From Bacteroidales bacterium (lineage in GTDB: Bacteria; Bacteroidota; Bacteroidia; Bacteroidales; UBA932), in the NCBI GenBank assembly GCA_017429885.1, contig JAFROA010000438.1, positions 1 to 8,853 on the forward strand: a DNA stretch of 8,853 bases, in the 5' to 3' direction. The notes beneath the pieces are model-generated. The model was given only the letters and a program-made list of their open reading frames with translations, had not been told where the DNA came from and did no database searches. Positions 1,965 through 3,026 of this stretch are shown in pieces; the stretch's first letter is position 1; each line of letters opens with the position of its first letter. Both the position numbers and the translations under genes were made by a program.

Positions 1965-3026
1965 TTATTGCATTGTGCCGCCGACAATGTCGAGAATCTC
2001 TGAGGTGATCTTTTGCTGACGGCCTTTATTGTATTCAAGTGTGAGCGACTCAAGAAGCTCATTGCCGTTGTCGGTAGCGGTCTGCATTGCGACCGTGCGG
2101 GCAGCGTGCTCGGCAGCATTTGTGTCAAGCAGAGCGGTGTACAACTTCAGGCGTTGGACCTTAGGGAGCAGCTCCTCAAGCAGTTCCTCAGGAGAGGGCT
2201 CGATGATCATGTCGTCGGGTTCGGATGGCATCGCCGCTGTCCCGAGGCCGTACTCAGCCGCAGCGAAGCGAGAATGGACGCGGCCTGGGACAGGCGGCGT
2301 GCCATCAGTAGCGCCGTCCGGAGCAGAAGTAGCGGCCATCGGGAGATATGGTTCCCGAACGGTTATTTGTGATGCTGTCGACTTGAAGTGGTTGTAGACC
2401 AGTTCCACTTTCGAGAAACGGCCTGATGAATATCCGTCAATAAGCTCCTGAGATAAAGCGGAAGCGGCCTCGTAGCCAGGAGATTCGGCCATCTTCGTAT
2501 AATCATCCGGAGACGGGAACCCTGCTTTCCGCATGGCCTCCGCCATCTTACGGCCGACAGAATAAACGACTATGTCACTGTCAGAAAGTCCCGAGGTGCG
2601 ATATTCATCAATCACCGCAAGTGTTTTGCGGATCGCATTGGCGTTGAATGCCCCGCAGAGAGACGAGTTTGAGGAGAACGCCACGATGGCGACCTGGGAT
2701 GGCCGATCAGGTCGGCCATGACAGGAGGCAATGTCGGCCGGTGAAATATCTTCATCCGGCGTGGCAGCCGGGGTAAGGCGATACTCAGCCGCAGCGAAGC
2801 GAGAATGGACTTCGCCGGCCCCGGACTGCCCGCCGGAACTCAAGGGGGCTTGGGCCAAAAGGTTGGCAAGGATACGCTGGAGCTGACGTTCGTAAGGGAG
2901 CATGTTGGTAATCGCCTGCTGGGCCTTACGCAACTTCGCCGAAGCCACAAGCTTCATCGCTGAAGTGATCTTCAGCGTACCGCTAACGGAAGCGATCCTA
3001 TTCTTTATCTCCTTTAAAGAAGCCAT
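1965..3026 (-). CDS. atpG: F1Fo ATP synthase gamma subunit, with three in-frame repeat insertions
   Basis: Central rotor shaft of F1, coupling c-ring rotation to catalysis in alpha/beta. The N-terminal helix (MASLKEIKNRIASVSGTLKI, then TSAMKLVASAKLRKAQ) and the C-terminal helix (LYTALLDTNAAEHAART, then AMQTATDNGNEL) are the family's signature coiled coil and are intact; the Rossmann-like part begins at QVAIVAFSSNSSLCGAFN (residue 111). At 353 residues it is about 60 longer than the roughly 290 I expect for the family. The excess coincides with repeats: type I at residues 64-91, type II at about 101-112, type I again at 241-268. A further stretch (residues 231-240, AATSAPDGAT) before the last copy also looks foreign. 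The insertions lie between the helical shaft and globular domain, or in a loop before the C-terminal helix, which should tolerate them. The ATG shares one base with the atpA stop (TAATG). Last gene of the operon. Confidence 0.95.
   Translation of the reverse strand: MASLKEIKNRIASVSGTLKITSAMKLVASAKLRKAQQAITNMLPYERQLQRILANLLAQAPLSSGGQSGAGEVHSRFAAAEYRLTPAATPDEDISPADIASCHGRPDRPSQVAIVAFSSNSSLCGAFNANAIRKTLAVIDEYRTSGLSDSDIVVYSVGRKMAEAMRKAGFPSPDDYTKMAESPGYEAASALSQELIDGYSSGRFSKVELVYNHFKSTASQITVREPYLPMAATSAPDGATDGTPPVPGRVHSRFAAAEYGLGTAAMPSEPDDMIIEPSPEELLEELLPKVQRLKLYTALLDTNAAEHAARTVAMQTATDNGNELLESLTLEYNKGRQQKITSEILDIVGGTMQ
2224..2306 (+). repeat. Type I structured repeat, copy B (in atpG)
   Basis: An 83-base hairpin. 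The left arm 2224-2250 pairs with the right arm 2281-2306 through 25 Watson-Crick pairs interrupted only by single unpaired bases (T2231, G2293 or G2294, G2244). The apical segment is 2251-2280; its first 29 bases (2251-2279) are identical to those of copy A. The stem sequence is largely different from copy A but folds with the same geometry. In the gene it is read antisense to this orientation and encodes residues 241-268 of gamma, including VHSRFAAAEYG. Confidence 0.88.
2693..2725 (-). repeat. Type II palindromic repeat inside atpG
   Basis: On the minus strand the core is ATGGCCGA-CCTGA-TCGGCCAT (2699-2719), a perfect 8-bp stem with the same CCTGA loop as the intergenic copy. A 2x2 internal loop and an outer 4-bp stem (CCTG/CAGG) extend it to 2693-2725. 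Relative to the intergenic copy, stem pairs 4 and 8 are changed on both sides (C-G to G-C, G-C to A-T), so pairing is kept. Read in frame it gives SCHGRPDRPS in gamma, close to a CHxRPDRxS peptide that I remember, without a database check, as recurrent in Bacteroidetes predicted proteins. Confidence 0.8.
2755..2837 (+). repeat. Type I structured repeat, copy A (in atpG)
   Basis: An 83-base hairpin: left arm 2755-2781, apical segment 2782-2811, right arm 2812-2837. There are 23 Watson-Crick pairs in blocks of 7, 5, 6 and 5, with T2762 and A2825 unpaired and a 3/2 internal loop (2774-2776 against 2817-2818). The 29 bases at 2782-2810 are identical to 2251-2279 of copy B. It encodes residues 64-91 of gamma, including GEVHSRFAAAEYRL, read antisense to this orientation. 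Nearly the same 83 bases occur in atpB on the opposite strand (copy C). Confidence 0.9.

Follow-up and report, generated by a model that had tools for sequence, protein, structure and literature searches.

What keeps two hairpins in one housekeeping gene paired when the sequences of their arms differ, and in which molecule do they fold? The question is raised by atpG, the gene for the F1 gamma subunit in the ATP-synthase operon on contig C411 of a ruminant-gut Bacteroidales bacterium. A preliminary description of the 8,853-nucleotide stretch of DNA analysed here, which we call the window, had noted in atpG two 83-base hairpins with an identical apical sequence and compensated changes in their stems, and had proposed that either the fold is selected, as RNA or single-stranded DNA, or the two arms repair each other by template switching. 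The source genome (G000) comprises 2.24 Mb in 466 contigs and is 68% complete. The features concerned are as follows:

1965 to 3026, minus strand: atpG (F1 gamma), host of hairpins A and B, with the frame open across both
2224 to 2306, plus strand: hairpin B, also in atpG; 25 Watson-Crick pairs; member of the subfamily that lacks the TTA/GG internal loop
2251 to 2279, plus strand: core of B, 29 nt
2755 to 2837, plus strand: hairpin A, in atpG; left arm 27 nt, core 29 nt, right arm 27 nt; 23 Watson-Crick pairs
2782 to 2810, plus strand: core (apical segment) of A, identical to the core of B
5987 to 7150, minus strand: atpB (Fo subunit a), host of hairpin C, with the frame open across C
6993 to 7075, minus strand: hairpin C, in atpB; within the window, the nearest relative of A
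7020 to 7048, minus strand: core of C, with 2 differences from the cores of A and B

A covariance model of the family returned B and A at exactly 2224-2306 and 2755-2837, the boundaries first given for them, and the unpaired T of the left arm and the unpaired purine of the right arm are present in both as claimed. The third copy alluded to in the preliminary description is hairpin C. Of the 23 comparable pairs, A and B have 10 in common, 12 differ in both bases yet remain Watson-Crick in every case, and one differs on one side; the original hand count of 12 compensated pairs therefore stands, but its 11 identical and no broken pairs have to be amended. The sole one-sided difference falls within the internal loop of A, where one T.G pair is possible on the plus strand. 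Hairpin A is of the atpB-like subfamily, and 22 of its 23 pairs are identical in C, the remaining one being compensated. Because A is so closely related to C, the contrast between A and B is one between two subfamilies and not a single hairpin changing in place; in-place change was therefore assessed at sites common to several species.

Hairpin A is located between residues 59 and 111 of AtpG and hairpin B between residues 240 and 274, in stretches that remained unaligned in two alignments against solved gamma chains, and hairpin C is near the N-terminus of AtpB. Two variable loops of AtpG carry differing extra sequences in many of 16 aligned species of the genus (L147-L172), and some of these extras, such as SFRPERS, we take to resemble REP-derived peptides. 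Shorter REP-like hairpins both adjoin the family element and sit within it. In atpG, a 36-nt stretch adjoining A contains a TGTCATGGCC..GGCCATC palindrome (around 2698-2723); the stretch is a gap in RUG579 and G017 and is apparently a recent in-frame REP-like insertion. At several sites, including L126, L140 and L308-L314, small CCCTGAGC..GAAGGG hairpins occupy the apex. Another palindrome, shorter than the family element (CGTCATGCCCGGCCTGACCGGGCATC), and a variant of it are found at 1933-1958, just 3' of atpG, and at 7227-7252, in frame within atpC; its first letters, CGTC, are the tag of a published REP superfamily, and CGTC repeats have been reported in Bacteroidetes (both in the available portion of PMC3733652). 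Positions 1-1932 of the window hold an open reading frame (ORF), open at its 5' end, with NamZ C-terminal, Fn3-associated, chitobiase C-terminal-like and CotH kinase domains.

The hairpins belong to a family with many further members. The source genome contains 13 cores at three mismatches or fewer, compared with none in a reversed control, and 15 copies, A and B among them, by covariance model. In total, 173 loci yielded 145 distinct copies. The unit is 83 nt long (27+29+27), and conservation stops sharply at either end; in the consensus the left arm is near GCCGGAGCAGCCGCCGGGCTTAGGCCG and the core is TACTCAGCCGCAGCGRAGCGAGRATGGAC. The 29-nt core is near-invariant, a uniformity that is inflated in part by the use of the core itself as search query, although positions outside the scan pattern (base 1 of the core, its final four bases and the GG..CC on its flanks) are mostly 90-99% conserved too. 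The arms form about 25 pairs, and most copies have single-base bulges at set positions. Of the 145 copies, 142 form 20 or more Watson-Crick pairs, and the other three are decayed, two of them having 3 and 4 pairs. Left and right arms paired at random across copies gave a median of 15 Watson-Crick pairs against 24 for the true arms, the random median being as high as 15 because arms are common to many copies. Twenty extra model matches had commonest lengths of 92 nt (six matches) and 107 nt (five), corresponding to units enlarged by 9 and 24 nt, the rest ranging from 78 to 105 nt; among these 20, L298 and L299 did not fold as the family hairpin and L293 folded partly.

The family was found in 7 of 61 genomes sampled from the genus and in none of 294 other genomes sampled from the order (295 including the source genome). 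An exact scan for the core in one genome per species recovered at least 113 stretches; the 80 titles listed were all Bacteroidales or Bacteroidia metagenome-assembled genomes, many of them named for rumen, omasum or abomasum samples. Viral contigs contained no exact core match. With up to 150 candidates scored per genome, the covariance model found matches in all eight known carriers, with 4 to 31 copies each (31 in RUG579, a genome found through L047), and in none of six non-carrier genomes.

Most copies lie within protein-coding genes. A long ORF holds 108 of the 145 copies (74%), divided equally between the two gene directions (54 and 54), when a host ORF is defined as at least 250 amino acids and clearly longer than rival frames; the other 37 copies lack a confident ORF by this definition. 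Of 671 random positions in the same loci, 459 (68%) passed this test, so that ORFs are interrupted by the inserts no more than by chance positions. The core carries a stop codon in one of its six frames, and the absence of all 108 copies from that frame follows from the open-frame requirement itself and carries no weight as a statistic. In the source genome the hosts include AtpG, AtpB, DnaG, FtsK, PriA-like and IspE-like proteins, a HAD hydrolase and GH3 and GH95 enzymes, and all three hairpins of the window are read through in open frame.

To which class of element does such a family belong? The window gave no Rfam 15 match at gathering score, and the earlier remark that no named family has this form holds as searched; the kind of element, however, is known, namely palindromic repeats within protein-coding genes. 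A palindromic repeat inserted in frame in many unrelated genes is what has been described as Rickettsia and Wolbachia palindromic elements (RPE and WPE), and paired changes together with inversion at the same site, as described below, are what template switching produces. REP sequences are mainly extragenic, unlike the copies described here. A REP flanking a RAYT transposase was considered and rejected, as were MITEs with a target-site duplication: there were no copies at the scanned transposase loci, and no consistent direct repeat flanked 62 copies, the best being a small excess of 4-mers, at 16% against 5% in the control.

Transposases of the RAYT type (Y1) are nevertheless widespread in the genus, occurring in 46 of 61 genomes. 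The Y1 clade nearest to the host's own protein (64% identity) was present in 3 of 7 carriers and in none of the 54 other genomes. RAYT-like genes of this clade, in carriers G000, G017 and G049, include the following:

L179, 592 to 1527, minus strand: RAYT-like Y1 gene of the nearest clade
L183, 1207 to 2337, plus strand: RAYT-like Y1 gene of the nearest clade

The Y1 protein of the source genome scores under the NCBIfam cut-off for REP-associated tyrosine transposases. No core-like match was found in 22 loci around Y1 genes, five of which cover the three nearest-clade carrier genes, and the covariance model gave no match on those five. Because the carriers may simply be related, we regard the carrier-limited clade as a lead only, and a link to RAYT as not established.

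We then consider how the arms change. From 48 copies chosen for having at least 20 pairs, L034 and L019 were removed by hand, leaving an alignment of 46. In this alignment 88.7% of cells were paired, compared with 71.7% in shuffles; changes on both sides occurred at 23 of 25 pairs (13.8 when shuffled), and covariation reached 0.461 against a shuffled value of 0.163 ± 0.011. When the partner was slid by 1-3 columns, 23-49% of cells paired. Thus further copies exist in the genome and across the family, and they retain their pairing. The outcomes that would have refuted the preliminary description, namely an absence of further copies or stem changes that break pairing as often as they keep it, were not observed.

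Comparison at shared insertion sites is a stronger test, as it excludes mere subfamily differences between sites, and 31 sites were common to at least two genomes. We kept 156 of 197 orthologous comparisons, dropping those with fewer than 18 common pairs and those whose flank identity, on one side or the other, did not exceed 0.5; these comparisons, which are mutually non-independent, provided 3549 stem pairs. Of these pairs 465 differed on both sides, 441 of them being Watson-Crick in both copies, and 266 had changed on one side. When comparisons with at least 18 common pairs were binned by flank identity, compensated changes accounted for 0.5-1.4% of pairs at 90% identity or above and for 7-21% in the 60-90% bins, an uneven rise. 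One-sided changes remained at 6-10% in the 60-90% bins as the neutral expectation climbed from 5% to 47%. At about 95% flank identity the one-sided level was 5.6% against a neutral level of about 5%, and in the next bin it was 6.5% against 14%; the bins with the fewest pairs (22 and 23) showed 14% and 22%. A flat one-sided level against a rising neutral rate implies that mismatches arise but do not accumulate.

These results bear on the possibility that the family is a selfish insert akin to the Rickettsia palindromic elements and descended from several source lineages in which the arm differences were already in place, its copies having since only decayed. Such an origin would account for subfamilies with near-identical arms at unrelated sites, among them the closeness of A to C, and for copy replacement, nesting and the few decayed copies. 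Among 111 grouped copies the nearest arm relative was an ortholog for 67 and a paralog for 44, and some altered arms do represent replacement by another copy, as for A in G000 compared with G017, or L010 compared with L092. However, compensated changes also occur at shared sites for which there is no good donor among the collected copies, for example in groups 0 and 1 (the copy sets being incomplete), and one-sided changes fail to build up with divergence. Furthermore, a loss of repeat identity with time has been reported for Rickettsia elements (PMC6649704, in the part available). We consider this origin improbable, and at well-sampled sites it is largely contradicted.

Sites shared between species also differ in the orientation and composition of the hairpin, as judged by eye on the alignments for inversions, nesting and half-copies. 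Both orientations are present at 16 of the 31 shared sites, and the whole hairpin is flipped in place between L116 and L142, whose flanks are 95-96% identical, between L001 and L047, and between L002 and L056. Copy replacement can also switch orientation: at the L010 site of RUG579, a remnant of an arm precedes a distinct copy (L092) in inverted orientation. Similarly, at site A, RUG579 has a stub and half of an older copy, and G000 has a C-like copy. At L040, L054 and L086, copies are nested in, or adjoin, the apex of an older core, and several breaks as well as nested insertions fall at or close to the apex. In G058 an identical 9-nt core insertion is present at four sites with three arm types; the orthologs of these sites have an ordinary core at three and a core enlarged by 24 nt at one. 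A core common to sites, with arms bound to their sites, is most simply accounted for by recombination between copies.

None of the sites examined provided a clean empty site at high identity, and several absences retain half a copy; possible empty sites for L012, in comparison with L119, and for L058 reach no more than 73-75% identity. Derivation of the arms from host-gene sequence was set aside: the half-copies found at L060, at L113 and at the B site of G058 resemble empty sites, but either the complete copy persists in orthologs or some core sequence is still present, and deletion is preferred.

The frequent inversions, in which the unit flips whole, are also what would be expected of a programmed intragenic inverton, in which a recombinase flips the unit and so switches the encoded peptide. 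Both readings of the core that result from opposite orientations, VHSRFAAAEY and YSAAAKREWT, do occur open. Known invertases act at fixed sites, however, whereas the arms here vary from site to site, and the flips were observed between species and not inside one population; we therefore regard programmed switching as very unlikely.

Which molecule, then, folds? The RNA of the plus strand is predicted to fold strongly at both A and B (z of -6.1 and -6.9, respectively, with none of 200 shuffles equally good), which together with the covariation could indicate a fold selected in the host mRNA for stability, pausing or attenuation. Against this, copies are equally divided between gene directions, orthologs are inverted, the host genes are unrelated, and the mRNA strand shows no excess of G.U, with 14 G.U events against 17 A.C. 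Folding as host RNA, one of the forms in which the preliminary description had envisaged selection, is thus not supported by the data, and we consider it barely credible.

Mismatches are strongly polarised when counted instead on the strand that carries the core. With stem positions 5-8 left out, and with at least 18 common pairs required of each orthologous comparison, G.T exceeded A.C at 19 sites and the reverse was true at one (sign test, p = 4e-5). One-sided events on the core strand comprised 28 G.T and 8 A.C; 9 of the 28 occurred at a single position, and removal of stem position 10 left 19 G.T and 7 A.C. A count over all copies, collapsed by site, gave 47 G.T against 22 A.C on the core strand and 23 against 27 on the mRNA strand. 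The bulges also follow the core strand: the two outer bulges appeared on the mirror side in no copy and in a single copy of the 145, respectively, and the inner bulge was on the left in 115 of 145 copies and on the right in none. Polarity of mismatches and bulges that belongs to the element favours a strand of DNA, or an RNA transcribed from it, over the host message. Strand bias in the mutation of exposed single-stranded DNA may contribute to the G.T excess. Taken together with the equal gene directions, these results suggest that the fold likely acts as a DNA-level hairpin and not in host mRNA. The alternative originally raised, of a selected fold or of arms that repair each other, is supported, pairing being kept in nearly all the further copies collected; selection on the fold is retained in its single-stranded DNA form.

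Template switching, the second of these possibilities, accounts for inversion and for paired changes, but it does not fit the strand polarity of the mismatches (19 sites against one). In its fully neutral form, the family would be an inert old palindrome in which template switching, or repair of breaks at the hairpin tip, copies one arm to the other and flips the unit, with folding free of selection and the core held uniform solely through gene conversion among copies. Such a process is expected to leave inversions and multiple compensated changes (PMC8794818, available portion), and in nematomorphs coding palindromes have been described whose arms evolve in concert, with template switching put forward as one possible cause (PMC6649704, in part). 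The near-neutral one-sided level at about 95% flank identity implies that fresh mismatches are not purged at once, the core does move between sites, and the breaks and nested insertions at or near the apex are likewise in keeping with neutral repair. By contrast, neutral repair does not explain why the balance of G.T and A.C is bound to the core strand, or why bulges and the internal loop persist when arm copying would erase them. Protection of single-base bulges by the reading frame would be a partial answer for coding copies, but both bulges are kept in 18 of the 37 copies outside the confident-ORF set. We consider a purely neutral origin possible but doubtful.

Polarity thus argues for some selection on the fold, and inversions together with near-neutral fresh mismatches argue for template switching. 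The reading that we prefer, to which we give about even chances, is that these are non-autonomous palindromic inserts of about 83 bp, found in one genus among those sampled and mostly in frame within genes, that stay paired, and formerly spread, as hairpins of single-stranded DNA of a fixed strand and not as RNA. Spread would have depended on a transposase-like activity acting on the extruded hairpin of the core strand. Two processes would clear mismatches from the arms: survival limited to core strands that fold well, and arm-to-arm copying through template switching at a stalled or broken hairpin; the same events would flip the hairpin, and recombination between copies would hold the core uniform. 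Hosts would tolerate those insertions that leave the frame open. More tentatively, and with appreciably less confidence, we suggest that the family is a self-maintaining element of housekeeping genes that is processed as an extruded single DNA strand of fixed polarity, flips in place as a unit, has its core renewed from other copies and its arms kept paired throughout the divergence of its host species, and whose structure, more than its sequence, is inherited site by site.

How does the family compare with known systems? The ends of IS200/IS605 elements and the attC sites of integrons are strand-specific hairpins of single-stranded DNA that are recognised through bulged bases. The strand polarity of mismatches and bulges in the family hairpins may be analogous; unlike those systems, the family has no identified cleavage motif, enzyme or transposase-flanking copy. 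RPE and WPE are palindromic repeats inserted in frame in protein-coding genes (PMC10969869, PMC4224334, available portions), and by description the family resembles them in lying in frame in unrelated genes, but they come from another phylum and are about 150 bp long (PMC10969869, same portion) compared with about 83 bp here. Furthermore, where RPE lose repeat identity (PMC6649704, in the portion available), the present family keeps its pairing, inverts in place and shares its core across different arms. Short repeated hairpins, some of them in ORFs, are also formed by intragenic REP sequences of the GTAG and CGTC families and by RAYT-linked REP, but their stems measure 5-13 bp in the accessible text of PMC3733652 compared with about 25 pairs here, and no copy of our family was found at the scanned transposase loci. 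In nematomorph mitochondria, palindromes in coding sequence have arms that change together; those arms code for conserved parts of the native protein, and the available text reports no repeated core family (PMC6649704), whereas here a repeated insert carries a conserved core. Finally, template-switch hairpins of RNA genes resemble the family in their paired stem changes and predicted loop inversions, but they reflect a mutation process in which complete inversions of the loop are very rare (PMC8794818, in the part available), in contrast to 16 of 31 sites here.

The closest known kind is thus the palindromic repeat of protein-coding genes (Rickettsia RPE, Wolbachia WPE and intragenic REP), judged by descriptions; what is new here is the maintained pairing, the inversion of whole hairpins and the exchange of cores. 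Searches of the open-licence PMC literature yielded no report of this family or of its combination of features. Knowledge of in-frame palindromic repeats comes mainly from Rickettsiales, in which they have been portrayed as selfish DNA whose repeats lose identity (PMC6649704, in the part available). Dozens of copies at shared sites constitute a natural record of DNA-hairpin evolution in which compensation, flips and core exchange can be counted, and in which selection on folding and template switching, as sources of compensation, become directly testable in bacteria. The family points to an activity on single-stranded DNA that may add peptide insertions to essential proteins.
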